A stretch of DNA of 64,000 nucleotides from assembly GCF_020382885.2 (NCBI RefSeq), contig NC_058515.1:11639223-11703222 (forward strand), given 5' to 3'. Source of the DNA: Scatophagus argus. Taxonomy: Eukaryota > Chordata > Actinopteri > Scatophagidae. A program made the translations under genes and the position numbers. The notes below the pieces were generated by a model, which worked only from the letters and a program-made list of their open reading frames with translations, did no database searches and had not been told where the DNA came from. This document shows, in pieces, positions 3,979-54,274 of this stretch (positions are counted from its first letter, which is position 1; each line of letters opens with the position of its first letter).

Positions 3979-6900
3979 ATGTTTGATCAGGCCACGACTA
4001 TGGGCGATGGGAACCACCGCTGTGGACCCAACCCGCTGTGTCCGGACCGGATGGAGACCAAGTGCCGCGCCGAGATAGGGAGCCGGTCCCCGGTTCAGAG
4101 CTCCACCGACACCCCGGGGACATCAGCGTCTACTCCAACGTCCTCCAGCGAAGACGGACACGACAAACTTCTGGGAGTGGACCCTGACTACTGTCGGAGG
4201 ATTTTAGTAAGGGGTAAGTGGACGAAAACGAAGCAAAACGCTGGTTTATTCCGCGCGTAAAACTAATTCTCAGAGTGGAGATCTGGCAGAGTTTCCAGGA
4301 AATTGAGGTTATTTTAGCTCAGTTAGAGAATGAACACAATCCTGACAGGCTTCCCCCCTGACACATTTATCCCTACACATACGCTATTGACATTCACAGC
4401 AAATGCAAAAAAAAAAAGAAGAAGAAGAAGAAGAACCTGAATGTGAGTAGTTTGGTGCTCGTCCCCCTGAAAACATCAAAATGTTACTGGCCAGTTGTCA
4501 AAAAGCAGCTCTCAGTCTGTTTAAAAGTAAAGCTGTGTCTGAAACCGGATGCTGAGTACAACATCTCTGGTGCAGGTTGGGCTGGAACAACAACAACAAC
4601 AACAACAAAAGCTCCTGTTTTGATAACAATAGGCTACTTTGACGTCCGTGATACCTAAATGATTGCAACACCAGACCACACCCGCAAGTATTTTTTCAAA
4701 TTTAAAAGATACAGTGTAATATAAAACTAAGCCTTTAAGAAAGTGAAAATATATAAATTGCTCAGTCAGCTCAGTAGTCAAAACAGTGAGCTAGCCTGCT
4801 TAAATATTAACTCATTATTTTTCTCTTGCATGTAGTGAATAATTCTCTTTAACGCAGCTCTGTCTGAGGGTTTAAAATCAGACCAGAGGTAGAAAAGAAA
4901 ACAAAGAAAAAAAAAATAAAAGCTATTTAGGATGATCAGGTGAAGTTCACTCCTCGAGGCTGTCGTGTCACTTTTTTAAAAAAAAAAAAGAAGAAAAATG
5001 GAGACAGAAGAAAAAAGCGCTATAAATAGGTGTGTGTGTGTGTGTGTGTGTGTTGGTTTAGTTGTTAATTAACGTCAGAATAACATTTGATTCAGTATTG
5101 TGCAGAGTGTCCACGCCCTCCTGAGGCCAGCAGCCTCTCAGTGGTGCTGAGACTTCTCTAAAAATACAAAAAATTAAGATAAAATCACTGCAGTCACAAA
5201 CACTCTTAAAACGTAATTTTTAAAAAAATCTCATATAATTTATTTTTCAAAATTCTTCATGTTCAGCCTATGGGTGATTTTGTATCTTCTATTTTTAAAA
5301 CTTAGTAGTCCACAGCGTTTGAATTTAATTCGTATTTGCACGTTAAAATAAAGAAAGTGAACTTGTTCAGTAAATGTATGTTGTGTGGGTGGGCAGCAGG
5401 TTCCAACGACATAAAGAACGTGTGTACATCTGTCTCCACGTGCATTTAGGATGCTTGTAATTATTATTTCATTATAACTCCAGTGGTGAATATAAAAAAA
5501 ACGATAAAAAATAAAATACATCATGTGAGGAATAATTTGATTAGAGGAGAAGTTTTCTGCAGGAAGGACTTTTTTCTTTTTTTTCTAATTGCTTTCCTAG
5601 AAGAAAAAGTCAGCAGATTGCACGTTTCCTGTCCATTCAGAATCTCGTAAAGAAAAAGCTAAAATTAAAATGCAACTGCTATTTTCGTGCATGGTCTCCT
5701 TTTGATTTTCGTCGTGGTGTGTAACTGTAGCCAATCAATACGTCGGCCAGTCAGCTCTCGGTGGATATTGTGGCTGCAGCTTTGCTTAGTTTTATTGTTT
5801 TTATTCGACGTTTAGTCGTGTAGTCTCTTCTGCCGTACAGAAGCGGCTCGTTCAGCCTGGAAACAGTAAAATAGGAACGACCAGTTTTAAATTGCAAACG
5901 ACTGGGGAGGCAGTGGAATTAAAAGGGCGAAAGAGAGAGAAATTATAGACGTGGATGCACATGGATAAATAGATTAATAACTCTTAAATAACCCGGCTTC
6001 TTCTGAGCGTCCATCAGCGCCAGCAGAAATCGTCTGTAATCGTATTTTTTAACGTTTATTATTACAGATATACTTATTATTGACTCTACAGCTGCTGTCA
6101 GACTGCTTCCCTTTTCATTTAATTCCTCCCCTGCCGATCATATCCTTGTGTTTTCCATGAGATGTGGAAGGTGTTCAGATATTCTCTGTAAAAGCCTGTG
6201 AACCATCAGTGCTCGGTTAGACGTACAGTCGTGTGTGTGTGTGTGTGCTCCATCAGCTGGTTACTGAGGTCCATCAGAGGAGGAAATGGCCTGCAGAAGG
6301 ACAGGGGTGTGAGCTGGAGATGTTTTACAGCTCGTAGTGAGCGGACGACGCCTACAGTGTCAGGATTTGTTTTTGAAACGGAGTCTGGATGCTCGTGTTT
6401 TGCGCAGAGAGGCCGGGGTCACCGAGAGGTCAGCAGGTCTCTGCAGCCGCCTGTTTCTCTCATCGGCTCACAAACGCTCTCATCACAGGCTCACGTGTTT
6501 TGTTTTTTTTGTTTGCTGCCTCCAGAGCCAGAAAAGTCGCCACTGTATGTCTGTATATCACAAGACTTTCTAGCATCTCACATACCTGGCGACACATTAC
6601 ACACAGTCATTATGCGTGCGTAAAGAGCGTAAAGATAGAGAGCTCTCATGTTTCATTACGTAGTTCAGGCGTGTAGGCTAACCAAACACGTAGGAATGAC
6701 TGCTGAGAACACTGTGATTGAAATAAGTGCTTAATACAGACCAGGGCGCACATAACTGATGAATTTACTTTAACTATTTTCATTCCTCTGCAGTAGCAAA
6801 AGCAGCCCACAGTTTCCTTTTACGCACTGATTCTCCTTCCGCTGCACCTGCTGTTTTTAATTACCACAAACGTTTTGGTTACTTTTTCATTGTCGCGCTT

Positions 6901-9900
6901 TAAAATAACGTTAATGCAAAGGCGGATGTAGTTTTCCAACAGGTCCAATTTGCCTGTACAGCTAAAAAATGAAATATTCAACTTTGGTTTTTACTGTTAC
7001 TGCAGTGTTTTAGTCGCTGTAGCCGGCAGCTCTATAGAAACACTATGGATGTTCGGGTCAATCAGTTTTGTTTCATATTTAATTCAGCACACTTCATATT
7101 TTATTGGATTACATATTTTATGACTTCAAAACCCTGGACAAAGGGGAGGTCTTGTCTGGCCAGCGCTTCCTTTGAATGCGATAAATAAGCACAGATATGC
7201 TCGGTTAGAGCGTAGCCAAAAATACAAAGATTTTACTGGAGGCAACAGTCTTTCGAAACCCCATATTTGTCAACTACAGCAAAATTAAGTAACGAATTGT
7301 GATTTTCTTTTCTTTTCTTTCTTTTTTTTTATTTAATTTTTTTTTACAACAATACAAACAATTTGTTGAAAGCTTCTGGATCCAGGGTGGGTTGTAATAA
7401 CTTTTATTTCCCATGTTTCCCATGTTTTTCCCCATTCTTTCTAGTATTTTAATTTGCTATAATCTAACTTTTCAAATGTACGTCATATGCTAGGAAACAA
7501 ATATCAAAGCAGCCAATTCTCGATAGCAGCCTGAGCCAAGGACTTAACTAAACATAAAATAAAATAAAATTCAATGCACAATAACACCGTTAAGTCGACA
7601 CTTGTCGTTGAAAGACAATGACACGCAGCCTTATTACTTGGAGTGGAAACAGTTGAGAATGAAGCTTTTGATGACATAAATAGCTTTATAGTGAATTTAA
7701 GTGTCGTGCAGACAAATAAAGCTGTGCCACGTTTGAAACTCGGACTAGCTCAGTAGCCTCAGAGTCAGGACAGACGTCCAGTCCGCTGGAGGGAAAGTAG
7801 AGCAAAATTCACCTTGTGTGCATTATTTTTCCCATAAAGTCTCAAACAAAGTGGGTGCAGTGCGGTCCGTCAGATGGTTTCAATTGGACTTTTAGTTGAT
7901 GGAAACACAACATATTTTCATTTTAAGCACGCAGATCTAACGTAGCCTCTGTCGACAGCCACTCAGGGTCAGTTGTGCGTTTGAATTAGTATAACTCAGT
8001 TAACATATGGTTGGTTAGACCCACCTAAAATCGATTATAGTTCGCGGTGTTGGGCAGAGTTTGCTGTTGTAATGACATTCACGCATAATTACAGAAAAGC
8101 AGCTACTTGCTCTAATACCTTTGCTGTTCTTTTCAACACACCTGCGCACAACTGCGCCAAAGGGCCTTTCTTCTGGCGTCTTGTGGTAAAAATAACGCAC
8201 AAAGCGGCACAGACGCGCATCCATCCATTTCTCTCTTTCTCTCTCTGAAGCCATTAGCCCATAGCTTTACTCATGAATATTACATCAGTTTGGCACCATG
8301 TAGGCCCACTTCACCACAGCCTTAAAGAAAGTCGAGTTTGTCAAAATTTAAAAGGGATTCCATTAAAATTTTCCGTTAGTGGTCGTTCTTTCTAAATTGT
8401 TCATTGTGTTTTTGGTTATTTATTTATCTCTTTATTTTCTCCTGCGGACAGATGCTAAAGGCACCATCCGGGAGATCGTGCTGCCGAAGGGCCTCGACCT
8501 GGACCGGCCCAAGCGGACTCGGACCTCCTTCACGGCCGAGCAACTGTACCGGCTCGAGCTCGAGTTCCAGCGGTGCCAGTACGTGGTGGGCCGCGAGCGC
8601 ACTGAGCTCGCGAGGCAGCTCAACCTGTCCGAAACCCAGGTAAGAGGGGCAGGGGAATGCTAGTGTTTCCAAAAATTAAATTAACCCTAAGAATGAAACA
8701 AACAAGCAAACAAAGAACCTAATATAAATCTGTCTTAATCTTGACAAATAATGGCAAAAATTATTTCCAAAACAACCGGTTAGCTAGTGGCCTATAGCCA
8801 CCGATTGCCATTTCTGGCCTTAGCATAGCCTAGCTTGTTTTAATAATAAAGACACTATTTATTCGTTTTAAAAAGTAGCTGAATGCTGTAGGACATTTCG
8901 GTTTACAGCAACCTAATATTTCCCACCATTTGGTCACAGGTGTATTTGGGACCTTTAATTGGCTCCTCGACCAATCAGAGGGGAGGAAAACTGCCCCGCC
9001 CCCCAAAAAACACTGTTGAGCCGTCTTCTCCACATCCGGGGCCCAATCCATGCTTAGAATATTTACAGTTCGACAAGACTCGATTTTCATTAATGTTTCC
9101 TCGTCACAAAGCATAAACAGGCCCCAGGGGGTTTGTGCCTGCGCCAGTAAAGGCTTTAAACGAGCATGAAGCCTTGCGATGGCTACAGTGCAGCCTAGGT
9201 CTGCACAACTGGTTCGTGTTTTTATACGCAGACCTGGTAATTTATATAACCAAGGTCCATTTGCCAATGTGACATTTTATGCACATTTAGATACACAAAA
9301 CTCTGGGTATGTAAAACATCAATATTAATAATAAACGGTGGGTCATTACGTCTTTGACACACGGAACATAATTCAGATTTTTCATATAAGGCAAATAAAT
9401 ATATAATAAGTAAGGAATATAAATAAGTGAAAATAAACGCCTCTTCAACCATCTGAATATTTCGTCTTCTGCAGTTGGGTGTGGGTTTGTGTTGTATGAA
9501 AAACCTGACCCCATTGGTGTATCCGGCCTCCCCTGAATCTCTCATTCACTGACCCCCGCGCGCTTCATTCAAGTCTTATAGGCAGCGCCACGAGCCCAAC
9601 CCCTCCAAGTTTATGATGGACGTCACCTGCTAATGGGACGTTACAGCACTGCATTTTTTTATTTTATTTTTTATTTTGTTGAAGCAACTACAATTTCTAA
9701 ACAAGATCCAGCAGATTATTTTTCAGTGTTTCAGACCAGCTTTTGATTTGTATTTTTTTTTGTTTTAACTCCAGCAGAAGCACAGAAAAAGCACTAAGGC
9801 GCGCTTTTATTCCACAAACGGGATATTAAACAAGAATCTCACATACTAGTTTTATGGTATAAAACAAGCGTTTTGGTGTATCGTGTAAATTCGAGCGAAA

Positions 9901-10373
9901 ATCTTGTGAATTTAGGTGTGTTTTTTATCCACCGTGGGCCTGTGAAGGAAGGAGTGTTTTATTTCCTACTTAGGAGTTAATTGCAAAACATATGCTGTGC
10001 GTGCTGCATTGCCACATCTTCTGACAAGTGAATAACACACAAATCAATACGCCTGTAGACAACACATCTCAGTAGTAATAAAGTCTTAGTAATGTCCTCC
10101 AAACCTCGAAAACAAATCAACGAAGTAATAAAAAATAAATCACCAAAATAAAGTACGAGTATGGGTGAATTTTTTGAATTTTTTTGTAGTAATTTTAACA
10201 TCTTGTGAAAATAAACTCCGAGAGGTTGCGTGTTTTGAGGCCTTAAATCACTTCTTGTGTAAATAAAACACTTGTTGCAGGAACTTTACGCATCACCACT
10301 GCGACACTGTGGAGGTCCCAAACTAAACAATCCAAACACACAAAAAGACTCACACATAGAGGTGGTGGGAAGG

Positions 10374-10409
<36 letters not shown>

Positions 10410-11490
10410 ATTTGGGAACACAGCAGCCACTGTGTCCCTCATTAGTGCTGACACTAGGGGTGTTAATGGGAGGGCCTCAGCTTCCTGCTGCTGCTGCTGA
10501 GGAGACGCAGGGCAGCAGATGATTGGCTGAAGGAAGCCCTCTCCAAACTGCCTGACCTTCAAGGGAGAACAAAATGTAAATCATAGGCTAAAAGTCTCGA
10601 CAGTAATGGCGTGAAATATTCAACCCATTGCTCTGAAATGTCTTAATGCTACGTGCTATTGAAGCACCTTTTAAGCGTGATCGAAAGGCTTTTAGTCGGC
10701 ATTAGTGGAGTTTTCTCCATCTATTTGTGGTGTTTGCATGTATACATAAATATATATTTTTTCTTCTCAAGGCTAATCACAGAAAGAGAGATGGAAGCTG
10801 TAGGGCCCTTTTTAAGTGACTTGTTTGGGTTGTTTTTCTGAGTTTTCAGACTCGCTGTGTTTGTCGGTGTTTTTCAGGTCGCTGAAAACCTTTCACGGGT
10901 TTTTCCCACGAAGTCATTTGATTTTTTTATGTCCAAATTAAAGACCGCTGGGGTTTAAAAGCAGCTCCATTAGCAAACAGGCTTTCACCTATCTATCTAT
11001 CTATCTATCTATCTATCTGTCTGTCTGTCTGTCTGTCTGTGATGGGGGGTGACTTCCTTCAGATGCAGTCGAAATATGAACGTATTAAATCCGTCGCATT
11101 TAAGGCTTTAAAACTTGTAGAAAAACGTTGTCCCCCCCCCACGCGTCGTTGTAATAATCCCACATAAAATGATGTCAAAAGTCAGAAAATTTTATTCCTT
11201 TTCCAATAAAATCACAAGCATATGAACTTCCCCGTTTGTTTTAAGAAACACTTTGGGAAGTTTATAGCAAGTAAACACCGATTAAAGCTTTATTACAGGC
11301 TGTTAGAATACACTCTGATGAAGGTGACAGGCCTCTTCATCTGCGACTGAAACACAAATACTAATTACAGTAATATGGGAGGCTGGATCGTTAAGTGTTT
11401 TTTAACAATGTTTGGGGATTTGATCGTTGACCCATGCTGTAACTCCAATTAGTTTGGTCAGGTATTCAAACTGATCACGCAACTGGGCAG

Positions 11491-11531
<41 letters not shown>

Positions 11532-36839: not shown

Positions 36840-36871
<32 letters not shown>

Positions 36872-37015: not shown

Positions 37016-37450
37016 CCAGCTGCACAGAAAGGAGGAGGAGGAGGAGGAGGAGGAGGAGGAGGAAAAGAGTGAGAGGTAGCAAAAAAGATGAAGAGTGAAT
37101 AAAGAATGAGGTGGAGAAAGAAAGGGATGGATAGGAAGATTTGGGAGCTGGTGGGAGGAGAAATGGTGAGGAAGAGAAGAAGAAGAAGTGTGAGCCAGGA
37201 GGGGCATGAATGGGAGGGAGAAGGAGGATGGAAATTTTGAGCAAGAACACACATATTTTAGGAAGAGAAAGGTTGGAAAGTAGAAAAAAGAAAGCAGAAA
37301 AACTGAGAAGAAAGAAAAAAGAGAGGATACCAAGGAATACTGGACAAGATGGATAGAAGGAGGGAAAGAGAGAGGCAGAGCGACAGGAAATGCAAGGTAA
37401 GGATGAAAAAGAGAGCATCAGGAAAGCCTAGACAGGAAAATAAGTGAGAA
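37016..37450. repeat. Polypurine tract beginning with (GGA)n
   Basis: A (GGA)n run (about 37031-37063) opens roughly 430 bases in which the plus strand is overwhelmingly A and G. Open frames across it are low-complexity shadows. Such tracts can form triplex DNA and slip in replication. Confidence 0.8.
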
Positions 37451-38531: not shown

Positions 38532-38773
38532 GGCAACAGTGAAACACAACACACACACACATTTTAATTAATTATTAATCCAAAAACATCAGATGTAGTA
38601 GTAAGAAACACAAACAGGGAAGATTTGGGGCTTTATTATTATGATTATTATAATTATTTTTATTATTTTACTGCATTACTTTGTATTTCAATGCATTTAG
38701 AGAATTTAGCAGGACTTTTACATGTAGTAGAGTATTTCCACAGTGTGGTGTTAGTATTTGTAGTGAATTATGA
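38532..38773. repeat. Repeat B, copy 2 (about 242 bp)
   Basis: Direct-orientation copy of 36141-36383, 2.4 kb downstream, starting and ending at the same points in the element but more diverged than the two A copies are from each other. No A copy adjoins it. Confidence 0.8.
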
Positions 38774-41424
38774 TTACTTCTCTCGCCACTGGATTAACAG
38801 ACAAACTGTTTAGCAGAACTAAGAGGGACGATAAGCGTGTGTTTAGGGATTGTGCGAGCACTGGGGTAATTGATGTCAAACCGATGTTTTGTTGTTGTTT
38901 TTTTTTTGAAGAGAAAATAAGCACCAATCAAGATGAGGTGAATGAACAAACAGCAAGTTATGACTTAATATGATCATTTGAAAAATCAAAAAACTTCACA
39001 GACAGACGGACAGACAGAAGCATCTATCAGTATCAGTCTGGCAGCTCTGTGTCTGCTCGCAGTGTGTGTGTGTGTGTGTGTGTGTGTGAACTTCAGTGCC
39101 ACTGTGTGCCCACCATGACCAGACAGCCTGCTTCCTCTCCTGTCATGACCCCCCCCCCCCCTCCAACCCGGACCGTCTGTGCCACTTTGTGCTGGGTTCA
39201 GCAGACGGTTTCCACCACTGACATCATCACTGTGAGACGGTGATGTAGCTGCCCTTACAGGTGACGTGCCAGAGGCCAACAACCGAGGGCACTGACACGG
39301 CATGAGCGCATTTTTATCAGTGAAGACACGAGTAAATAAATAACAATAATAAGTAAACATTATTGTGAGCTCATAGAAACACTGAGCAGATTCTGTGTTT
39401 TGTCACAAGCGAGGAAAGAAAGGAAAGGAAAGTCTGTTTTCGTGCCATCTTTGAATTCTTACATTTGTGTGTTTATTACCACTTTTTAATCCTGAATACC
39501 CGGCTCACATGTATTTCCCCTGCAGTTATTCATATTTGGAGCTGGAGCAAAGACTTGTTGAGCAACAGGTGGCAGATCACAGAGTTAGAGTGACACCTAC
39601 AGAGCTCCGGCTGCAGCTTCACTCAGAGAGGACACATGCCGAAAATCACAGCACATGTGGCCTTCACAGGTTCGGGCGTCCCAGTTTTTTTCAGGGATAG
39701 ATAAATGTAGACGTTATATAAATCACTAGGTTTACACTTAAACAAGTTGTCTTGTCCAAAGAGAAGTTTTTATGAAAATACAGATGAGGTGCAGCAGTGT
39801 GTAAATTATCTATTTTAGTGTTGTCTTAAACTTATTCCAGGCTATTTTGTATACTGTATTTAAAGCATATTCATCCATTTTAAACAAAATCCAATATATT
39901 AAACTAAAATACATTTGAGGAGCATATGCATATATATATATATATATATATTTTTTTTTTTACCAAATCCTTTTTTAAGAAGTTAATTTAAAAAAACTTT
40001 ATTGTTGTTTAATTTAGTCTCAACAACCACACAAGAATCTTGGGGAGGAAATTCAATAAATGCAATCTGTGAAGAGGAAATCTGAGCTCTATCTTACATT
40101 AAAAAAAAATAAATCTAAAAGCACAAAGTTCTGTGGTGATTAAAAGTTGAAAAGAGTGGGGAAGACACAGGGGTTGATGTCACCACAGAGGAGGCTTACA
40201 ACATTTCCACAAGCCACCCGAGCAGCACATCGCGCTGAAAAATTAATATAATACGCCTGCATTTCTGATCATGTTTGATTCAAGACTGAGAATCACAGTG
40301 AGTGTTTAGTGTTAAAATCAGGGCTTTGTTTTCACACAGTAGAGCAGCCTGTTGATACCTGCCGCAGTGAATGTAAAATCAGTGCCTCAGCTACACTCTT
40401 TCACTCCCTTCAGGTGATAAAATCAGTTTCAGTTGTGCTATAAGTTGAAATCTAAAGGTGAAAACTTCCCCTTAAACGTCTGCAGGGGCGGATCGATAGC
40501 AGCGGTAGCCCGTACGATATGTGAATATTTTCCCCCACCTCAGTGGATCAGTGCGCGAATCCGCCTGTGTGTGTGTGTAAGTGTGTGCTGAAACTAATCA
40601 CAGGAGAATATTGTCATTTACTCCCTCTAATAGACTCGGTCATCATCCTCTGGTCTAAACTAATGCAGAGACAAATCCCCCGCAGGGAATTGACTCACGG
40701 GCTTCTATTCTCAGCCAACTGGACTCGTTCATTTCATCACCTGCAGCCTGTAATATTTATGCGTCTCCTGCGTCAGCGTAGTGGTGCATCATAAAATACT
40801 GTAACATGAACGCACTTTAAATCTGCGATGGTGATGTAATATCAAGTGGTAAACGTGGCCCACATTTTAAATATCCCATTAAGTGCTTATAAAAATCCCT
40901 GCTGGCTCTGACCAGATGGGTAAAGGATAGTTTGGGGTCGGGGAAAATGATCTCCTTCTGTTTTGAGGCAAACACACACACTCACACACACACGCAAGCA
41001 CACAAAAAGTGTTGGTGTTTTGTTTGGACAAAATGTAATGGCCCGGATGATGACAGAGAGGGGGAGAAAGTGCGAGAGGGGAGGAAAGACAGTGGATGGA
41101 GCCAGCGGTGGCGGCTGCGGCGGCCCTGTTCTGTTTGTGTTTCCAGCGTACAGTGGAGTCACCAGGAGGCCAGCAGTGTCTGCGAGGCTGTGCTGTCACA
41201 ACGCATCCCGTCTCCTCCAACTACACTCCACCTCCCCTCCACGCACTCAGCATCCTCCTCGCTCAGTTTCCAGAAACATAGTACCCGCTAAAAAAAGAAA
41301 CAAAACAAAAATAAAAATCAACAAAAAACCAAAAAAACACCCTCCTCTTCTCACTCGCCTCTTAAAATTCGCCTTACATCCCCAGCCTCTCTCGCGGGGT
41401 CCTGCCGAAGGCCTTGTCTTACGC

Positions 41425-41478
41425 AAAGGTCACATCCCCGCTGACCTCTTGTTGAACCCAGCTTGACCTTTGCAGGTT
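41425..41478. promoter_or_regulatory. Cluster of nuclear-receptor half sites
   Basis: AAAGGTCA (41425-41432), TGACCT (41442-41447) and TGACCTTTGCAGG (41464-41476) occur within 52 bases; the last resembles a DR1 element with one mismatch in its second half. Receptors such as RAR/RXR, ERR or ROR bind such sites. This could be chance, as half sites are only six bases. Confidence 0.22.
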
Positions 41479-42940
41479 AGCGTCTCTGTCAGCTGCAGCT
41501 GTGCTGCTGCTAAAAGCCCAGATTATCCAATCACACAGTCATTAGCGCTGAGTGGGCCAGAGCCAAAGCAGGTGAGTGTGTCTCTCTCTCAAAGTCTTTC
41601 TCTGTCTTTTACAACCAACCACAGACGTACATTTTACTCAGCAGATGATCACAACCGTCCCCTCTTTATCACATGTTCAAAAACGCATCATATCAGTGGC
41701 GTTAAAACCCAACAATCTGTCACCTCGTTACAAACTCGTGTAAACTGCCAGATGCGACTGTAGTATCATAAACTAAACCGGGTGGCTTCAGCTTCATTAA
41801 ACCTCAGTTTTCAGACAGAGTCGTGGACCAGAGTGTGTGGATGCAGATGAGACGGGGTGGGGGGGTTGCCAGGATTGAGATTTTCAGGATGACAGGCATG
41901 TGTGGCATCCAAGCCAATCATGGCAGAGATTTAAAGACGACCAGCTGGGTGGTTTCAGCTGCAGGGCGTTTGCTTTTTTTGATGGTCTGCCAGAGCTGCA
42001 GCACAGTTTTAGAGGAAAGAAAATGGACTCTTAGTGATTAAAAATTTCAAATTAAAAGAAGATGAATTTAGTGTTGTGCATTTCCCTATAATTTGACTGT
42101 TGGAACTTAGCCTACTTCATGGACTGATAACAAACACAAGCATAGGATTGTTTATAATTTTAGCCACTCAATAATTAGTCATAGCTTACCATGCACTTTA
42201 AAAATGTATTTTTATTGTATTTCATATAGCTGTATCTCACTGTCTTTTGTGCCTTATGTTAAGCACTTTGAGTTGAATATTCTGTTCCACACGCATTGCT
42301 TTACTAAATATGTGCCCAAAATGTTAATATAAAAACATGTCTATTAACCAAATATAAAGATATTCAAAAAATATTGTTGTATGAAGTTAGCTTGAGGAGG
42401 AAAGTGCATTTTTTCTGTAATATTTCTCATTTTTGCAGCTTTAATGTGTCATATGTTATCATCCATATTGGCTTTCGAACAGTAAAGCACACGCACACCG
42501 CTAAGACTCACAGTAATGTAAAACAAAAATATTTTAAATGTTTAACCTCTTTAACAGCTCTGTCCGTTACGCAAACTCATGCTGTGCTCAGCCGCAAACA
42601 ATTTTATTTTAAATTAACCTAAGTTTTCCCAAGACACCAAAAAGATGCCTTTTTAGAAAAATCTGAGTGAAAAGATAAAACGCGTATTTGTAAAGCTGTC
42701 AACATAAACTGTGGGTGTTGTTGCAGTTTTAAGGAATCGCGATCTGACACGTGTTGATCTTCTTTTTGACGTTTAAACCCGGGCTTTCACCTTGAACCTG
42801 CACTTCTTCGTGGTGAATTGCAGCGTGTGACATTATGTAGGTCCATACTGTGTGTATTATACCGATATAGTGTGTAATTAATAAGTCCTTGTCCTGGAAA
42901 GTAGGTCTATTAGATTAGATCCTGACGTTCTGATTCGTAT

Positions 42941-43023
42941 GTCAGGATGGCCGAGCGGTCTAAGGCGCTGCGTTCAGGTCGCAGTCTCCTCTGGAGGCGT
43001 GGGTTCGAATCCCACTTCTGACA
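42941..43023 (+). tRNA. tRNA-Leu (anticodon CAG)
   Basis: The 83-base sequence folds as a class II tRNA. The acceptor stem GTCAGGA (42941-42947) pairs with TTCTGAC (43016-43022), followed by discriminator A (43023). The anticodon stem CTGCG/CGCAG encloses loop TTCAGGT with anticodon CAG at 42975-42977. A long variable arm (TCTCCTCTGGAGGCG region) and the T arm GGGTTCGAATCCC follow. The A box (TGGCCGAGCGGTC) and B box (GGTTCGAATCC) of the internal RNA polymerase III promoter are intact. A T run at 43030-43035 can terminate transcription. There is no intron and CCA is not encoded, as expected for a eukaryotic gene. Confidence 0.97.
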
Positions 43024-43029
43024 GCAGTA

Positions 43030-43035
43030 TTTTTT
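43030..43035 (+). terminator. RNA polymerase III terminator of tRNA-Leu
   Basis: Run of six T on the coding strand, seven bases after the tRNA 3' end. Confidence 0.8.
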
Positions 43036-43778
43036 GTTAGGCCACGCTGTGAAAACATCTATTCATCAGCGCTTAGACTAATAATGACGGCTTTTAGCTA
43101 CACTGTAGTCAGAGTCGGTTTTAATTATTATCTCACACTATTGTTCTGAAGAAATACGTTTAACCCTTGACTGTCCTCAGCAATTTGGTAACGCAACCTA
43201 ACTTGTTGCTACTGAATAAATATCTTGTAGAATAAATGTAATAGAATAATAGAATAATTGTATAGAGTCCACTGTCAAGTGGACTTCTCTTTTTGTGCGG
43301 TCTATCATATACATCTATATATGATGTAAAACAATACTGCAGAGATATTGATTTAAAGAACTTGTAAGCTATAAGTATGTTTGATTAAAATGAAGAACCA
43401 TCTGACATTACGACAGAAAATACGATAGGATCCGAAGTTATCATGTCTGCAGCCGTGGTCCGTATTTTTTGAATTACCTTGACATTTCTTTTCAAAAGAC
43501 TAGACAAATTAAAATGAATCAGCACTCATTTCCAAATGAAACAAAACAGTGTTTGAGAATATCAGAAGGAAGAGGAAGGCCAAAGGCTGGCTGAAGCCCA
43601 TGGCAAGCTTTGTTTAATCTTTGTGCTTTTTCAAACATAAATCCTGCTGGCTTTTTCAATCTGTCTCAATTTAACCAGAATTTAAAAGACCCAGTTTTAA
43701 TGAGGATCCAGTTGTCTGACAATGTCGCCCACTGCAAGATACACCAGACAACAGCTAATGTTAAGTGACAATTTCACC
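43036..43778. other. Spacer downstream of tRNA-Leu
   Basis: AT-rich unique sequence with no open frame of note, no clear repeat and no recognisable RNA gene. Confidence 0.6.
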
Positions 43779-43811
43779 TTTATTAACATGGTGAGGAATC
43801 ATTAGTAAAGG

Positions 43812-44247
43812 TCAGGGTGACGGGCTGGACAAGGTTTTGGTGCTCAGGTGGTGCCTGTAAAGAGAGCAACAGAAAAAAGAAAAGACTCATTAAATCACAA
43901 GGACGTCACTGCCACGAATCACAGCAGCTTTTATCGTTCATCTGTACAGGGCATCCATGTGTATGTTGAAGGTGATTTAAAAGAAAAAAAAATTTAAATT
44001 AGGTCTTTTGATTAGAAAATATTTATTGTCCCATGTCCCATGTGTTGTAGGGAGAGAAAAGATCTCTTGAATCTAAATTTATAAAGCAGGGTCAAGGCTG
44101 TCATTGAACACTGGCATGTTTCAGCACACAATGGGAATGCTTGCTAAATAATGTCTGACTTTTACAGATAACTCACCTTGCGGACATTTTTGCAAGGGTC
44201 AGGCTTTGGTTATTCCACAAGCCAAAACCACTATCTGACTCTTCCAT
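43812..44247 (-). CDS. Tentative two-exon minus-strand gene, 37-aa product or non-coding RNA
   Basis: On the minus strand an ATG at 44247 in a good context (A at -3, G at +4) opens a frame that runs to a near-ideal donor AAG|GTGAGT (exon 44247-44177). A strong acceptor, TTGCTCTCTTTACAG, precedes a second exon (43854-43812) that continues the frame to a TGA, and AATAAA (43784-43779) follows 28 bases later. The join would encode 37 residues starting MEESDSGFG. I recognise no family, and more 5' exons may exist. What supports a transcript is the aligned set of start, donor, acceptor, stop and poly(A) signal; a non-coding RNA or chance remain likely. Confidence 0.25.
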
Positions 44248-45060
44248 GATTTGTCTGGAGTTTTCTCGGTTTATTACAGATCACACATACTTAAACACGT
44301 CCAACATTCAGGTCTTATATTTTTTCAAAGAACGTAACACACCTGGATTGTTTACAGACTGTCAACAAGTACCTGCAACGATATTTGAGATTTGTTTTAT
44401 TCGACTTAGGACTCATTTTTTTCTCTACTTCATGTTGGAAGACACACACCAAAAAGTATACATTTTTCTTTTACAGTCAACAAAGATCAAACTAAAACAA
44501 TGAATTAATCCTAACAACCAGTCTGTGTAGCCCAAACCTGATAAATTTTAAGCTTACTCCTTTGTTTTTCATGAAAATATTCAATCTTACAACATAATAT
44601 GCGCTCGTGGTGACTGCTACACTCTTGGTGAAGGCTGCTGCTAGAAATAAACCGTTAAAAAAAATGGCTTTAAATTATTTATAGCGGGGGAATGAGTGTC
44701 ATCAACATCATCTTGTGAACTGTCATCAAGATTATGGTTCCCACGGCAGGTCTGATGTTTCCGAAGTCGTGAAGAGAAGTCGAGCACAGAAGAATAAAAG
44801 AGGCTTTGCCTTTGCCTGCGACAGTGTGAGTGACATTGATCCTGCAGAAGAGAGACAGTGTGACCACATGCATGAATACAGCCTACATTCTCCTCTTTTT
44901 ACTGTACGAACAAGGGGGCAGAGGTTCAAACGCCTCACACTCTAGCTGACTTACATCAACAGTAAGATTCAACAAACATGATCAATATTTAGATACATGT
45001 AAGTGCGTCTTCTGAGGAGCGTAAGGAAAAAGTTCCTCTTTTTAAAACTGTGGCAGTGGA
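44248..45060. other. Spacer before the shootin-like gene
   Basis: No exon is supportable. An open frame at 44715-44945 on the plus strand contains KRGFAF, which recalls an RNP1 motif of RNA-binding proteins, but the rest of the RRM is absent, so no call is made. Confidence 0.5.
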
Positions 45061-45094
45061 GGAGGGCTTTAGCAGAAATTCCCGCTTGCTTCCT

Positions 45095-45135
45095 CCATAA
45101 AAAGGCGACTGCTGCTCAGACAAAAAGCAGGTTTC
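45095..45135 (+). promoter_or_regulatory. Candidate TATA-type promoter of the shootin-like gene
   Basis: CCATAAAAAGG (45095-45105) is TATA-like and lies about 100 bases upstream of the first coding ATG (45202), which leaves room for a short 5' UTR. No other core element is clear. Confidence 0.3.
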
Positions 45136-45201
45136 TGTTAGTGCTGGGATGTGCAGTTTAGTTTAGCTTACCAAGGAGCTAAAAAAGTAAACTGTGGCAG
45201 G

Positions 45202-48200
45202 ATGTGGATGCAAGGTGAGGACAGTGCAACAGCAGGTAGGACTTGATAATGTGCGTACAAACTCCTGCTGAAATATTGGTTTTAGTCACATGATATGATA
45301 GTCACATTTTGCAGTTTCAATGAGTCCTTTCGGTATCTAAATAATTGGGTTCAGTACTTGCATGATAATCAGGTTAGATTTCCTTTTCAGGAATAATAAA
45401 ATGTTCACATCTTGTGCTGTTGTTCATTCAGTCAAAGGTCATCCATTTTTGTTATTATTGTTAATATATATGTTATATTGTTTTTATTATTCCAGCACAC
45501 TCTTGATTGGGGACGTTTAGTGTGCTTTAGCACTTTGAATGAAACATGAGATGGAGCCACTTCTTTATTACAGTTCACCATTTTGGGGAGTGTGCTGTTT
45601 CACTTTCCTCGCAAGATGACTTTCACTTCTCTTTGATATTAAGCTACAGCCAGCAGAGGTTTTGCTGAGCTTGACAGTAAAACATCGGGTTTGTGTGCAA
45701 GAACTTTGTAGCTGGGCAATGTGAAAAGTCCCATAAACCCCACATAAAACGAAAAATTATCTAGTCTTATAGCAAACTGAGATTTAACTTGCCAGTTGCT
45801 GAGCTTTAAAGAGACTAGTAGGTCGTTTTGTTTCCTTGAAAAGAACAAATCAGTCTTGTCCTCATGCTAAGCTAGGCTAAACACATACTGTCTCTGGCTC
45901 CATGTGTTTGGAAAACATGTTAAATTCACCGTCTTGCTGATAGATAGATAAATGACAAGTCCACAAGACCACTCTCTGTGGTATCTGTTGGGTAAATCTG
46001 AAGCAGCAGCTAGCAGCCAGTTAGCTTAGCACAAAAAAAAAATCTTCTAGCAACTCTAAAGATCTTTAATAAACATTTTAGCATAACACAAAACTCAGCT
46101 TATTGGACAAAATGAAGCAGAAGCTGGAGATTATACTGTGACTCAGAGGCCGCAGAAAGTGAAACGCATTTTTTGTAGGATCCTTAAGTGATTTCACTTC
46201 CTGTGTTTCTTGCACCGACCTCCATCACATGGCCTCACCAAGTTCCCCCTGCAGTCACACTGACAGGATGTGTGGATTTCGTGTGATTATCTTGCCTCTC
46301 AGATGAGTGTTTTCTGTTTCCACAGCCTGTTTGACAGAATGATGTTATTTTCCCCACAGAGTCTGACGGAGAGAGTGATTTATCTTCTGAGGATGAGGGA
46401 GACATTCGGGTATGGCCGCTAATGGCTGGCAGTAAATTGCTGGTTAATTAATGCCACTTTCTAATGTGCATTAGAGACAATCAGCATGAGAGGAAACACT
46501 GAATTTCCTGCTCAAGCAGATGTACTGTTATTTGCTGAATGTCAAACGACTTCTCCCACGTGATTACATAAAAATATCATACAAATTGGACAGGCTTTGG
46601 TTCAAAAAAATTTAACTAAGCTAACTATTTAAAAAGAAAGAAAAGGAATCGAATTGAATTGAATACCATGAGAATAAAATCAAATACTTGTGTATTTTGT
46701 TGTTACCTGATTGATCTCATTCTCCTTTCTCATGGATGTTTGACTGTTAGTGTGAGATCCTGGAAATGCAAAGGGATGAAGCCAATCAGAGACTGTCTGA
46801 ACTGGAGGAAGGTGAGAACAATTTATTCATTTTAATATCTGTTTGTCCTGATTCAGGACCATAAGCGAGGTAGAGACTATTCCACAAAGCAGAAAAACAT
46901 TTAAACTTCAAAATCACATCTATGGCAACATAAAGTCTCCAGTGCAGGGAAAAATGCATCATGTTCAAATTTCACAAAGAAAGGGCGTTTATGATTCAGG
47001 TTTAATCTGTGCAAACTCTCCTCAGGTTACCTCTCTCAGATGTTTTTAGTGAGATGACCGTGAGATGATTAACTTTTCTCCTCCTCTCATTTGCAGTCTC
47101 CAATCAGCTCCTGAAGGAGATTAATGTACTGGAGATGCAGTTCCAGATTGAGCGCTCCTGCAGGGAGAGTGCTGAGGCACTGGCTGCCACAGTACGTCTT
47201 GTAACCTCTGCAGTGATGCTCCTTTCCTTTCCTTTCCTTTCCTTTCCTTTCCTTTCCTTTCTGCTTTTTCATTCACTCTCCTTTCCTTTTTGTTGTTTGC
47301 CTTTCTTTCATTAGGTCCCTCGTCTCCTTTCCTGTCATTTTCGTCCCAATGTCCTTTCATTCCTTTTCGTTTCTTTCATTCCTTTTGTTTCCTGTCCTTT
47401 AATTTCATTTTCTTTCATGTTATTCTTTCACTCTGCTGCAGTTTCCTTCACTTCTCTCCTCTTGTGCTCTCTCTTGTCGCTTCCCTCCCTGTATGTCCTT
47501 TTGTTTTGTTTCATTTTCATTCCTGTCTTCCCCTCCGTCACCTGTGCTGCCGTTTCTCCTCCTTTCCTTTCATCTCCTGACATGTCAGATGATAGACTCT
47601 AACCTCACCTTACCTTTGTCATTTTCACACTGATAGATCAAACTAAGGCGCACACACAGCGACCTCCAGACTCACCCTCCTCTCCTCTCATGCCCTAGGT
47701 GACCAAAGAGAACAAAGTCCTGAAGAGGCAGAGCCAGATGCTGATGCCGCTCATCCCCGAGCTGCCTGAAAACTCTGCTGCCATGAACTTAGACCAGGAG
47801 CCCGACCCCATGGTTAACTGTGACTTGGTTGATGTTGGTGTGGACAGGAATGAGGAGGCGAAGCTGCTGCTGGAGAGTCAAGCCAAAATCGCAGGTTTGA
47901 CAAAACGGCTCGAGATGTTGACAACAATTAAACTTGTGTCTGGCAAACCAAAAGTGAATATATTTTGCCATATGAGGAATATATGAAACAATAATGACCC
48001 TAAAAGGAGAGATGGTTTAGCTAATGTTGTTCCTGATATCGTAAAATAATCATCCCGATATATTAAACATCACCACTTCAGACAGTTAGTTAGAGAAGCC
48101 TCTTAACAGCAGTTAATTCACCATGTGTGTATTATTACGTTGGTTCACAGCTGAAGCACATGGGTGACCTTAGACACGCTGTGTTCCCCGTGAAAACCTC

Positions 48201-48539
48201 ACAGAGTAAAAATTTAAAGCTTTATTTATCAAGAAGGGATAAGATTGACAACACCTTTGGATCACAGCACATATGAGTGTGAAGATACAACTAAAAAAGC
48301 TTCTAAATGATGTTTCTGTAATAAAGTGCTTCAGAATCATCATCACCACAGGAGAACTGGAGTTGGATTTGAGGTTTTTTCAAGCGGCGTCAAAGTCTTG
48401 TAAACATCACAAACCTCTTTATGACTGTGTGCCAGAGCTGCAGACGTCTGTGGACGCTTTGCTGGCTGAGAAGCTGAGGCTGGAGCAACAAGTGGAGGAT
48501 CTGACCAAAGAGCAGGTCAAACTCAGAGAGCAGGTACAT

Positions 48540-48588
<49 letters not shown>

Positions 48589-51500
48589 TGCACGTTATCA
48601 CCAACCCTTTGCTTTCAGCTGGCTCTGGAGTTCGAAGAGAAAGAGGCTGTACTGAGGAGAATAAGCAAACAGAGCAAGACCATGAATAAAATCAAACGAG
48701 GTGAGTCCTCACAACATTCAGCTGATGATTATTTTCATTATTTGTTTAAAAAACAGTCATAAAATTGGGATAAATGATTCTTTTTGTTGTTTCATCCAAC
48801 CAGAAGTGTAAAAGCCAAAAGTCATTTAAAGGGCAATTTCACCCAAATTACAAAAACACAACATATTTTGTCTTTTTTCTGGTGATAAATGGTTTTGTTT
48901 GATCTTCTGAGTTTTCCTGTTGCAACAGCAATGCAATGTGTGTGTATTATTACTGCAAAATGGTGAGTTTTTATATAAAATAGAGAAAAGCAACAAATCA
49001 TAATGATTTAAATACTTGAATATGATGTAAATTAGTGAATATATGACCTTTTTGCTTTGATTTATTTGACAACTTAATGAAGCAGTGGATCATTCCGGCG
49101 CTACGTTTCAGCTTCCGTTGCCCAGTCAAAAACATAATGAATGACATCATCATCATCATCATCATCACTGAATTTCATGTGTGTTCTTTATGGGTGTGTG
49201 TGTTTTGTGTGCACAGTCTCCCAGCTTGTCACAGAGGAGTTCACAGAGATGTCTCAGAAGCTGGAGCTGGAGCAGGGCCTCCGGCAGCACGCCGAAGTCT
49301 TCGCCCACCAGGTGTGAGCGCGTGGCATACGTGTGTGTGTGTGTTTGTGTCTGTGAGCTGTGTGTACACGTGTGTTTTTCTGCAAAACATTTTGTCATAC
49401 ATTCACACTTATAGATACTGAGGGTGACAGGTCATGCCACAGGAAGGGAGCAGGAGTGTTGGAGCTGACCTTCGGGCAGCTGGGGCAAACACACCAACAC
49501 TTGGGCAGAAATGGGGAGGTGGGATTGGGGGTGCTTGCACACATGCACACACACAGACACACACACTGACACACTCTTCTGCTGTCAGAGTGCAGATGAT
49601 GTGGCAGGACAGGGGAAGGAGTCTCCTTTCTCTGTTTTCACATGGATGACACTTTGGTCAAATCTGGGCTCTCTGGGTGAGGCGAGGCATTCACACAAGC
49701 ACACACATACAAGACAAAAGCAGACACACACACTCACAGACATGCGGGAAAAACACCAATTCACTTAAAACCCACATACCCAAACACACTTTTTTTTTGC
49801 TGCCCCAGCTGCTCATATAATGAAGGCCTTTTCTTTCAAAAACGTGTCCCCGCTCCCTTCCCTTCCCCATTTAGCCCCTCCCTTCCCCATAATTAGTGGT
49901 CATCATTGCCGCTGAAGGAGAATAGCGGTCTTTAAGCACAACCTGTCTTTGCCTGACACCTTTATGTTTTGCCGAGCATATAGCAATTGTCGCCTTTGTG
50001 CACGGTGTCCTCCATTTACCGGACAGGCGCACAATGGGCTGCCTCGCAGGGGTCCTTACCTGTGAAAAGGACCCCCAACTGTTCACACAATTCAGCCCCT
50101 TTACTCTCAATTCATGGTAAAAGACCCCCCTGTGCTGAATGCCTCTTGTGTGCACTACTATTTGTCTGTTTTCATGTGTTTTGAAAACACATGAACACAC
50201 CATTCACACCTCTTCTCTGTGATGCATGGTGGTATAATGATGCAGGGCCTCAAACAGGAAACAATTTGGCTGTTTTTTTTCACATCTGTGTGTGTGTGTG
50301 TGTGTCTCTTTGTCCCTTTGTGTAGCTGTGTGTGATTGGGTCTGCGTGTTTGTATGTATGAAATAATTGCGCTAATTGCTGTGTGAAAATTGCTCTCTGC
50401 TTAAGGGAGACCAGAGATTAGAGTGGTGTAATTTGCAGCGCAGAACCCCGTGCTGCATGCGCTGATACAGAGCTCACCAAACCCGCTGCTTCGGTTTGTC
50501 CTCACAGGTCGAAATGCAGAAACCATTTTTTTGTTGTTGTTGTCACGCTCTCTGACCACAGGCCTGCTCTCACAAGGTGCCCATTTAGTCAGTCAAAAAG
50601 ACCAGATCATGCTTTAATGACTTTTCCACGGTTCTACCAGGTGATTCTGATATTTTTAGGTGTTTGTATATTAAAAAGGCGACTCCAATTAAAAAGTTAT
50701 TGCCTCCTATTGATCGCATTTTCAGGTGCCTCTCTTACATTAATGACCAATTGTATTAAATGCCTTGTTTTTTCTGTGGCTACGTGCTCATGAGCTACGT
50801 TAATGTCCTCTGCCAGCATGTTTTTGTTTCTGTGTTCGTGTTATACCCGACTTGATGTGCAAACTAGTTTCCCTTCGTGGATTAATTAAGTTATTTAACC
50901 TCACAGATCTATGACATTTTCCCTGCATATATGATATTAAGCATCACACAAGCTCATGCAAAAGAACAAAAGGTTTGTTTAGAGCACTCTGAGCGTCTGG
51001 TGTATTTATTAGTCACACCACAGAAGAAAGAATCACCAGAGAATGAAGGCTGTGCTTGACATTTTGCATTTTTCCTAACAAGCCACTTATGTTGGAACAT
51101 CGGAAAAACGATGCTTTGTCTCGCAGCTAAATCATCCTGTTTGCATTGTTATGACTCATCAGTGAAGCCGATGAGTACCAAGGCTTCCAAGTCATTGTTC
51201 AGTCAAATATTGGTTTGAAAACATTTTCTCTGCATTGTGACAACCTCCTGGGGGAAGAAAATGAATCAACAGCCACTCATATTTCACTTCATTCTCCTTC
51301 TTAATTGTGGTTCATTGTCACTGATGCATTTCTTTCCCATTTTCGCGGAGGCGGATAATCATGAGGAAGAGCGGAAGATGTCAGAAGGTGAAGCTGGATT
51401 TGTTGTGTCTTGTCAGATGGTGGCGCAGCAGAAGGAGACCCACGGACAGAGCGTGATGCTGCCGCAGAGCTCAGAGATCGGCCTGCAGCTGCAGCAGGCG

Positions 51501-51641
51501 CTGGAGCAAATCTCCACCATCAGCAAAGCCCTGTGTGATGTACAACGCTTTTACCAGGACCAGGTGTGTGCAGCTGTGATGAAAGAGAACAAAATGCATA
51601 TCCACTTTGACCTTTTTATGTTCGTCATCATGTCTCCTGTT

Positions 51642-51686
<45 letters not shown>

Positions 51687-52442
51687 TTGTCATTCCTGTC
51701 AGAGTGCTGTGGAAGGCACCAGCGTCCTCTCTGAGCACCAGAGCCTGAAAGAACAGCTGGAGACGAGCAAAGAGGAGACGAAAGCCTTAGAAACTCGGCT
51801 GTGTGAGGCTAACAGGACTGTCACGCAGCTCCAGGACCAAGGTAGCTGCCAGTAGAGACACGTTTCTCAGCAGAAACAAGCCTAATGGTAACCGCAGGAA
51901 AGAGTGAAAAGCAATGAGTGACTGCTGAAGCCAAAGTGACAGCAACTTAGGATCCAAATATTTAAGTTGTTGTTGATAAATGAAGTGCAGTCCTTTGAAA
52001 GCTTTTCTTTCTCTCTGGATTAGACCGGTTTTACATTCTATATGGTTCAATGTGATTTTGCATTGTCCAGCCGAATTCGCTCTTTGTTTATGACACCGAT
52101 GATCAGATGTTTTGTTTTGTTCTGTTCCTCTGCAGTGAAAGAGCTACAAGATAAACTGAACAAGGAGGACACCACTGATGAACCGGAGGAGAGTTCTACT
52201 CCTGCTCCTGCTCCTGCTCCACCTCCACCGCCTCCTCCAGCTCCTCCACCTCCTCCACCATGCACCACTGCCACCAAGTATGCCCTTTCCCTCTGTCATT
52301 AAAACAGTGGGGAGCGTGGACAGTCTTATAGTTTCACATGATTGTTAAAATATTGATTCAGAGGCTTTTTACACTCAACAATAACAACAGCAACAACAAA
52401 AAATCCTCACCCACCCAGTATGATGAATCTGACCCTTGTGAC

Positions 52443-52492
<50 letters not shown>

Positions 52493-54075
52493 ACAAAGTT
52501 CACTTGACTTCCTGAGAAGCAGAAGGAAAGAAAAAGCCAACAACGCTGAACAAAACAGTGAGTCTCACACGGTTAAAGTCTCCCTCCAGTCAAAAATGTG
52601 TTTTTCCTTCTTGCTGTTCCAGTTGAATTTTCGAGCCTGGCTGTGAAGAGTGATGTACATGCAGAGTCTGACACTATCGGACTGTTTCCACATTCATCTG
52701 CTGAAAGTGTAAATTCTCTCTTTTCATGCAGTAATTTGCGCATTTTTTTTCCTGCCTTAAATATCTCAGAAATGCATTAGAAATTTTTGATGTGTGGCTC
52801 GAAACAAGCACAGATGCAATCTTTAAAGTAATTCTCGGATTTTTAGGATATTTCCTTTTTGGTTTCTCAAAACACAGTAAACAATACTTCATCTCTGATT
52901 TGAACACTCTGTTTTCCTGAAAATATGCTACAGTGACACTGCAGAAGTGGCCGTGACAAGTTTAAATATTTTATCCATTTCTACTCTTTAAGAATCAGCA
53001 CCCTTTTTGGACATGAAGACGAAAGCTGTGGATGAAATGATGGAGAGAATAAAGAAAGGCATCGTCTTGAGGCCTATCAAGAGAATACAAGTGCGCAAAT
53101 TGCATTCGCAACTTACACAAACTCATATGAGTGCAAAAGACAAAGTAATGAATAATAAGCTCTGACACTAACATCTGACTTTGCTCACAGGATGACAACA
53201 GCTCATGGCAGGTCGGTTTTCCCGTACTTCTTTGTCACTTTTTGTTTTTATCATAAAGCAGCTGTGAACCAGTTTTATTCACTGCCTTCAAATCCTAAAT
53301 CCTCTTACAGGACCAGAGGAGTGAAAACAGGAAATCAGCCATCCTGGAGTTGAAAGGAATGCTGGTAACGTACTTAAACTCACATTAGTATCCTGATGCT
53401 AAAGCCTTGAGTGATAAATGACATCTTCATCCATTCTACACACCAGGACAACATGAAACATCAGCCCCACCGCAGGGTGTCATCCAGGAAGGGGTTTGGC
53501 CGAAATGTTGGGGAGGCAGAGCTCCTGCAAGTCCTCCAGAGGAGGAGGAGGGTGATAGGCGAGAACCAGGACCAGCCTTCCTCTGGACAAGCACAGGGTA
53601 CGCTGTCCCATCAGTCCTGTGTTCATAATGACACGACAGTGTGTGCTGTCTTTCATTGTTGCCTCTTGTGTCCATGTCAGTGGTCTGTTTAGGGCCAGAG
53701 GTATGCTGAGGCACGACTCAATTAGTAATCGTCTCAAAGGATAGTTTCACATATTTCATTAAAATCCAAATTAGGATTACAATATATCTTGCTAGCATTT
53801 CAACACATTACAGATCAGATACTTGAGGAAAACTAAGCGTCTAAATAATCCCCTTGTGACTGTGTTTGAGCCCTTGAACAAAGGAGTAGTTTTTGGACAA
53901 CACAGACAGCGAGCAAGTAGATTCTCCAAAATGGTAGAATGTTCCTTTAATAATTTGAGGCCACTAATAGGAAAACAAGTCTATGTTTATTTTCATTGTT
54001 GCATAATTTTTAAAATGAGATAATGCTTTTTTTTTTCAAATTTTTCAGATTTGTGTCTAACCAGAGGATGCGGTC

Positions 54076-54106
<31 letters not shown>

Positions 54107-54274
54107 TCCTGGTCAGACCCTCACTCAGGTCCACAGGCTGTCCCAGCAGCAGGAGATGTTCCCTGGGCAGGGGAGTGCGGCAGCGCCCCTGTGCTCCGGA
54201 GGCTGAGACAGAACCGAGAGAAGAGAGACTCTCGCCTCAGAGCATCAGCACTGCTCTTCAAACAAGACGACTGA
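45202..54274 (+). CDS. Shootin-family coiled-coil protein, 17 coding exons
   Basis: Paralogue of shootin-1, which links actin retrograde flow to L1-CAM through cortactin in growth cones. Coding exons: 45202-45214, 46360-46409, 46751-46811, 47097-47191, 47699-47894, 48436-48533, 48619-48700, 49217-49311, 51417-51563, 51703-51841, 52136-52277, 52499-52557, 52999-53090, 53191-53211, 53311-53364, 53447-53597, 54117-54274. All have GT-AG borders and matching phases, giving 550 aa (human shootin-1 is about 631). Family blocks: CRESAEALA, TKENKVLKRQS, VSQLVTEEF, a proline run (APPPPPPPAPPPPPP) after a long coiled coil, then AVDEMMERIKKGIVLRPI, ILELKGML and AELLQVLQRRR. Ser85 in KRQS aligns with the PAK1 site Ser101 of shootin-1; at the second site (Ser249) the basic residues are replaced (HGQS). 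The N-terminus is about 16 residues shorter and acidic. The start exon (13 coding bases) is the least certain part; the other exons are well supported. Exon 13 uses AATCAG as acceptor because the nearer TTAAG breaks the frame. Confidence 0.88.
45540..46060. repeat. Probable degraded dispersed repeat, intron 1 of the shootin-like gene
   Basis: Phrases such as CTAAGCTAGGCTAAACAC, CTGTCTCTGGCTCCAT and CAGTTAGCTTAGCACA are hallmarks of an abundant fish repeat rich in GCTAGC/TTAGCTTAGC words. The copy is diverged and its edges are uncertain. Confidence 0.4.
47218..47580. repeat. (CCTTT)n array and decayed polypyrimidine tract, intron 4 of the shootin-like gene
   Basis: About eight perfect CCTTT units (47221-47261) pass into some 320 bases of degenerate TTTCC/CTTTC sequence on the plus strand. 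Open frames across it on either strand are low-complexity shadows. Confidence 0.9.
48542..48587. repeat. (GT)n microsatellite beside a splice donor
   Basis: A 46-base GT run begins eight bases after the exon 6 donor (exon end 48533). GU repeats in pre-mRNA bind CELF proteins and TDP-43, so its length could influence splicing of exon 6; the intron is only 85 bases long and more than half of it is this repeat. Confidence 0.95.
48815..48985. repeat. Degraded teleost dispersed repeat fragment
   Basis: The words TTTAAAGGGCAATTTCACCCAAA-like (start near 48826) and GGTGATAAATGG recall a common fish repeat whose ends read AAAGGGACAGTTCACCC. It is diverged and recognised from memory only. It lies in intron 7 of the shootin-like gene. 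Confidence 0.35.
49790..50130. promoter_or_regulatory. Candidate enhancer in intron 8 of the shootin-like gene
   Basis: Intron 8 (49312-51416) is the second longest after intron 1. This block is unique, GC-balanced and rich in homeodomain-type words, including ATAATTAGTG (49889-49898), the reverse complement of the CACTAATT motif found in pairs at 29061-29081, plus CAATTCA and CATTTAC words. Such an element could act on vax2. This is called from composition and motifs, not from alignment. Confidence 0.28.
50171..50195. repeat. 25-bp perfect inverted repeat
   Basis: TTCATGTGTTTT (50171-50182) and AAAACACATGAA (50184-50195) are exact inverted repeats around a single G, in intron 8 of the shootin-like gene. 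Cruciform-prone; no known element recognised. Confidence 0.7.
50540..50830. promoter_or_regulatory. Second candidate regulatory block in intron 8
   Basis: Unique sequence with clustered sites CTTTAATGAC, CCAATTAAAA, CTATTGATCG, CATTAATGACC and CAATTGTATTAAAT, i.e. many TAAT/ATTA cores in about 180 bases. No coding potential. Function is inference. Confidence 0.25.
51642..51686. repeat. (GTT)n microsatellite upstream of exon 10
   Basis: About fourteen GTT units end 16 bases before the exon 10 acceptor (exon start 51703) and occupy the place of a normal polypyrimidine tract. Confidence 0.95.
52447..52491. repeat. (CT)n microsatellite forming the exon 12 polypyrimidine tract
   Basis: A 45-base CT run ends seven bases before the exon 12 start (52499) and must serve as its pyrimidine tract, so repeat length is part of the splice signal. 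Confidence 0.95.
53191..53211 (+). other. 21-nt in-frame microexon of the shootin-like gene
   Basis: Exon 14 encodes only DDNSSWQ, with phase 0 on both sides, so it can be skipped without a frameshift. Its acceptor reads TTTGCTCACAG, with a TGC just upstream, the kind of context used by the neural splicing factor SRRM4; its donor GTCGGT is weak. Both are typical of regulated neural microexons. Inclusion is inferred, not shown. Confidence 0.55.
53735..53960. repeat. Probable degraded dispersed repeat, intron 16 of the shootin-like gene
   Basis: It begins with AAAGGATAGTTTCACATATTT and ends with CCAAAATGGTAGAATGTTCC followed by TTTAA, resembling the two ends of a common fish repeat (AAAGGATAGTTCG ... 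AAAATGTCGAACTATTCCTTTAA type). The interior is diverged. Confidence 0.35.
54075..54102. repeat. (CT)n microsatellite upstream of exon 17
   Basis: A CT run of about 28 bases lies just before the exon 17 acceptor (CTGGTCAG, exon start 54117). Confidence 0.95.

Follow-up and report, generated by a model that had tools for sequence, protein, structure and literature searches.

A shootin-family gene beside vax2 in Scatophagus argus, the probable vax2-linked copy of an ancestral vax–shootin pair

Introduction

In the genome of the fish Scatophagus argus, a gene of the shootin family lies downstream of the homeobox gene vax2, in the same orientation. We take human VAX2 to have no adjoining shootin, and the question arises of where a shootin next to vax2 comes from. 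The stretch in question, herein called the window, comprises 64,000 nucleotides (nt) of contig NC_058515.1 (C23; positions 11639223-11703222), and the assembly searched has 570.7 Mb in 48 contigs. Its vax2 and shootin very probably descend from an ancestral vax–shootin pair that was duplicated in the genome doublings early in vertebrate evolution (2R). The shootin is a diverged, intact-looking paralogue of SHTN1. Hereby a little-studied shootin paralogue is tied to vax2 in one fish genome.

The general explanation is largely published (2013, PMC3827601; 2019, PMC6704158), and the gene of the window exemplifies, in one species, a family and an explanation that have been described before. In PMC3827601, atp6v1B neighbours such as Shootin, Slc18a, and Gfra are said to be present more than once, mostly restricted to 10q26, 2p13, and 8p22, with some copies in 5q31-33. 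This distribution is consistent with vertebrate whole-genome duplication (WGD). The ancestor of atp6v1Ba and atp6v1B1 is placed there close to a vax gene. VAX1 and VAX2 are an ohnolog pair (PMC4504502), and NKL homeobox genes are concentrated on the paralogon 2p/8p, 4p, 5q, and 10q (PMC2211742). According to PMC6704158, zebrafish shootin2 (561 residues, chromosome 7) has counterparts in fish, frog, and Tasmanian devil, and shootin3 (655 residues, chromosome 14) in fish including coelacanth. The main text of that paper holds no word starting with "vax". No text placing a shootin beside vax2 was found in the literature searched, outside of which lay supplements and most subscription papers.

The shootin-family gene of the window

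The original prediction of vax2 followed by a same-strand shootin-type gene is borne out by two open gene models. On the forward strand, vax2 consists of three coding exons (3979-4213, 8452-8639, and 21731-22231) with an open frame of 307 residues, and its protein matches the Pfam Homeodomain (E 1.6e-22). From the vax2 stop, 24.5 kb separate it from the first shootin exon found. Fifteen coding exons of the shootin-family gene were found at 46751-54274 (+); they join in phase to 529 residues, with the sole stop at the end. AG precedes all 15 exons, and GT stands at all 14 internal ends. Exons 1 to 5 occupy 46751-46811, 47097-47191, 47699-47894, 48436-48533, and 48619-48700; exons 6 to 10 occupy 49217-49311, 51417-51563, 51703-51841, 52136-52277, and 52499-52557; and exons 11 to 15 occupy 52999-53090, 53191-53211, 53311-53364, 53447-53597, and 54117-54274. 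The most shootin-specific exon is 47097-47191 (+), with a CRESAEALA stretch common to the shootin on contig C10 and the human probe (see below). The proline-rich stretch that separates the coiled coil from the C-terminal block is encoded by 52136-52277 (+), and 52999-53090 (+) is the conserved MKTKAVDEMMERIKKGIVLRP exon.

The borders were set by hand, using splice-score lists together with the sequence, and were chosen so that the frame stays open, because automatic fits differed in some borders and included spurious pieces upstream. For exon 4, an earlier start at 48385 was replaced by 48436 after comparison with the paralogues, which gives 98 nt instead of the 149 nt of the automatic fit. 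A count of 17 exons had also been predicted, and the rat shootin gene has 17 (PMC4673418); 15 were found in the window and the N-terminal exons were not located, so this count is unsupported. One unproven candidate for an N-terminal exon, acidic and in the right phase, lies at 46360-46409 (+; splice scores 3.4/3.1) and is one of two such candidates listed for 40000-46740.

The exons 47097-47191 and 49217-49311 are both 95 nt long, have equal phase, and are similar in sequence (VSNQLLKEIN.. and VSQLVTEEF..). Two 95-nt exons also occur in the two other shootins of the genome, and the pair looks like an old internal duplication.

Homology to SHTN1 was determined with a human SHTN1 sequence not drawn from a database entry, with its proline run removed, as probe. 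On the target 40001-54600, its spliced-alignment score is 529. All 12 shuffled probes stayed at 176-208 and the reversed probe reached 211; the opposite strand gave 157, and each of two other stretches of equal length 131. Along the coiled-coil and C-terminal blocks, the window protein is hence homologous to the shootin family. Database matches of this protein were weak, namely Mito_fiss_reg in Pfam (E 3.6e-4, below the cut-off) and adenylyl cyclase-associated protein in the PDB (E 0.0015), and they covered or bordered the proline-rich stretch.

Two vax–shootin blocks and a third shootin

The genome contains at least three shootin loci, namely in the window (C23) and on contigs C10 and C12. 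A genome search with a first version of the window protein gave 58 matches (79 of 93 candidates scored). Outside the window, the matches listed include four collinear ones on C12 at 0.796-0.800 Mb, with E values from 0.0145 to 0.087, and a collinear pair on C10 at 23.13-23.15 Mb (E 0.079 and 0.26). Each is weak by itself, and most other weak matches overlie the proline-rich region of the query protein. When the SHTN1 probe was used in a local tblastn, both loci matched strongly, with best E values of 8.7e-13 on C12 and 6.0e-10 on C10, and spliced fits of the probe scored 908 and 929, respectively. Exons of 61, 95, 82, 95, and 147 nt are common to all three genes in automatic fits; the third exon is unequal (196 nt in the window, 172 on C10, and 169 on C12). 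The equal lengths argue for duplication of DNA instead of retroposition, and a retroposed copy is ruled out by the 15 intron-separated exons.

On C10, vax1, a V-ATPase B gene, and a shootin follow each other in this order, all on the minus strand. Herein, vax1 lies at 23,239,792-23,243,874 (found by genome search, its last exon read), the V-ATPase B gene at 23.168-23.183 Mb, and the shootin at 23.126-23.163 Mb (spliced fit). Hence, a shootin follows a vax gene on one strand at both vax loci of the genome, and a duplicated block with a common neighbour order is found on different chromosomes (C23 and C10), as expected of 2R ohnologues. The same order and orientation at both loci fit a joint duplication with the VAX1/VAX2 ohnologues, for which such a pair at both vax loci of one genome is good evidence. 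The genome search for vax listed 103 matches (129 of 208 candidates scored), and among these only C23 and C10 stand out as vax loci. The vax1 match has 90% identity over 68 residues and 53% in the second exon; the other homeodomain matches listed reach at most 62%.

The neighbours vax1 and V-ATPase B identify the C10 gene as the SHTN1 orthologue, which rules out that the window gene is shootin1 itself. This supports the original proposal that the window gene is a shootin paralogue other than the copy linked to vax1, in agreement with the paralogon described in PMC3827601, PMC2211742, and PMC2446394. Caution is warranted against naming the vax2-linked gene shtn1 in fish annotation. Fragments of V-ATPase B place exons only on C10 and C20 and gave nothing in the window or within 20 kb of it. 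In particular, three C10 fragments revealed no such exon upstream of vax2 (window 1-3978 and the preceding 20 kb). This absence fits a loss of atp6v1b1 in teleosts. Among the species shown in Table 1 of PMC3827601, atp6v1B1 is listed in tetrapods, coelacanth, and gar; the teleosts there have atp6v1Ba only.

The C12 shootin adjoins THOC3, of which one exon was read. The best PDB match of this exon is THO complex subunit 3 (E 4.6e-36), and its best Pfam match is the THOC3 propeller (E 4.4e-21, below the full-length cut-off). We take THOC3 to lie at human 5q35. A single-exon protocadherin, with an unnamed protocadherin as best match, is located nearby. In the C12 shootin, N-terminal exons like those of the C10 gene (45 and 53 nt) could not be convincingly identified.

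The shootin quartet

The tree was calculated from four proteins (human, in a sequence not drawn from a database entry; C10; C12; window) over 405 columns and is unrooted. The human protein is 43.2% identical to C10, 44.7% to C12, and 33.3% to the window protein; C10 and C12 share 38.0%, C10 and window 32.3%, and C12 and window 35.1%. Maximum likelihood (ML) gives the quartet (human,C10)|(C12,window) with a bootstrap of 85 under LG+G4 and 92 under JTT+G4. In the approximately unbiased (AU) test, this topology is best in each of eight runs (two column sets, four models), and the third topology is rejected in 8/8. The window shootin has the longest branch, with 1.17 and 1.27 substitutions per site. 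The quartet leans toward a duplication older than the teleosts without proving it.

Origin of the vax2-linked shootin

The following course of events would account for these loci. An ancestral chromosome would have carried a vax–shootin pair, which the 2R doublings would have duplicated together with its chromosome. One copy would have become vax1–(atp6v1b)–shtn1, and another the vax2–shootin pair of the window. A third shootin is kept without a vax gene on the THOC3-linked segment.

Several points weigh against this origin. The 45- and 53-nt N-terminal exons of the C10 gene have no convincing counterpart in the window. In the quartet, site counts are 10 for (human,C12)|(C10,window), 8 for the ML split, and 4 for the third, and the AU test keeps window with C10 in all eight runs (p 0.10-0.34). 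This quartet has no outgroup, and its human row does not come from a database entry. The gene-order comparison covers the Scatophagus argus genome, and the shootin count in it is a lower bound. Since the tree does not reject window with C10, synteny carries the case. The proposed status of the gene as a 2R ohnologue of SHTN1 is thus supported by the C10 and C23 blocks rather than by the tree.

A duplicate from the teleost-specific doubling (3R), pairing the window gene either with shtn1 on C10 or with the C12 gene, would agree with the AU result for the former and with the ML grouping for the latter. In the stretches compared, the neighbours differ, however, being vax2, TEX261, and an ankyrin gene in the window, vax1 and V-ATPase B on C10, and THOC3 and protocadherin on C12. 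Moreover, only two vax loci stand out among the matches listed, and shootin2 and shootin3 extend outside the teleosts, to frog, marsupial, and coelacanth (PMC6704158). A 3R origin is therefore improbable. Even less credence is given to a later translocation that brought a shootin beside vax2, with the likeness to the vax1 locus arising by chance. The presumed lack of a shootin at human VAX2 would be explained by it, but order and orientation are identical at vax1, and the published paralogon includes Shootin copies (PMC3827601).

The missing N-terminal exons and the longest quartet branch could also be signs of a decaying pseudogene. Against this stand 529 open codons and intact splice borders at all 15 exons, even if these borders were selected for an open frame, and we regard decay as very unlikely, on a par with translocation.

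Loss of one shootin copy in mammals had been proposed. This is too broad if the window gene is shootin2, since a marsupial, the Tasmanian devil, has shootin2 according to PMC6704158; loss in placental instead of all mammals would then apply.

There is an even chance that the three shootins help to decide the sister relations among the 2R segments. In the ML quartet, the shootins linked to vax2 (2p) and to THOC3 (5q-like) stand together against the vax1 (10q) copy. This agrees with the Lbx study (PMC2446394), in which the Lbx1 paralogon is joined with that of Lbx4 and the Lbx2 paralogon with that of Lbx3. The 10q locus is there grouped with Lbx4, and the Lbx2 locus with Lbx3/Tlx3. Of the two topologies between which PMC3827601 does not decide, the pairing would speak for [Ba-B2, B1-B0]. 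Genes long kept beside vax genes may, in addition, share regulatory DNA with them.

Which shootin, and its likely function

The window gene and SHTN1 are alike in exon lengths, coiled-coil sequence, proline-rich stretch, and the IKKG-LRP block, and the C10 shootin, as SHTN1 orthologue, has the same position and strand relative to its vax gene. They differ in sequence: the window protein is 33.3% identical to the human sequence used and 32.3% to that of C10. In PMC3827601, the multiplication of the Shootin copies of the atp6v1B/vax paralogon along with their neighbours is attributed to WGD, as is proposed here for the window gene; the single mention of Shootin in its main text does not say which copy adjoins vax2.

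Like the window gene, zebrafish shootin2 is a paralogue distinct from shootin1. It has 561 residues, compared with 529 plus a missing N terminus of perhaps 35 residues, as judged by comparison with SHTN1, and this length suits shootin2 better than shootin3. With its 655 residues, zebrafish shootin3 is longer than the window model and fits better the length of the C12 gene, which encodes about 570 residues without N terminus (hand sum). At the position of Ser101 (rat numbering, PAK1 site), LKRQS is kept in the window protein; at that of Ser249, a serine is retained without its basic surroundings (GQS in place of RQS). According to PMC6704158, zebrafish shootin2 lacks the site equivalent to Ser249, and shootin3 has it. 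By its length, the window gene is moderately favoured as shootin2 over shootin3 and may be the orthologue of zebrafish shootin2.

In zebrafish, all three shootins are reported to move along with F-actin retrograde flow (PMC6704158). Judged by homology, the product of the window gene would most likely be a cytoplasmic coiled-coil protein that acts as a clutch between actin retrograde flow and adhesion when cells migrate.

Other features of the window and its paralogous regions

TEX261 and ANKRD53 had been predicted next to the pair. A TEX261 homologue with six exons lies at 56010-59304 (+); its spliced-alignment score of 878 was obtained with a probe not drawn from a database entry and without shuffle control, and one exon shows a weak match to Pfam Erv26 (E 0.0072, below the cut-off). 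For the second gene, ankyrin-repeat exons were found at 62239-62902 (-) in two frames (Pfam Ank E 6.6e-12, Ank_4 E 7.3e-9). By their position at 62.2-62.9 kb we take them to be ANKRD53-like.

Between vax2 and the shootin gene, a tRNA-Leu (CAG) is located at 42940-43025 (+; ARAGORN; Rfam tRNA 54.8 bits). The same interval contains two 20-residue translated stretches at ~36057 and ~36430 (+), which are alike in 19/20 residues, lie 373 bases apart, and suggest a direct repeat.

A 344-residue open frame (C10:23184847-23185878, minus strand), which presumably resembles a Tc1-type transposase, lies immediately upstream of the V-ATPase B gene that neighbours shtn1. Homeobox exons at 2.87 Mb on C12 and at 8.39 Mb on C10 are taken to be NK1-like. 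On the contig of vax2, two tandem homeobox exons are found at C23:9340400-9343600 (9.34 Mb), which are presumably Hmx-like.

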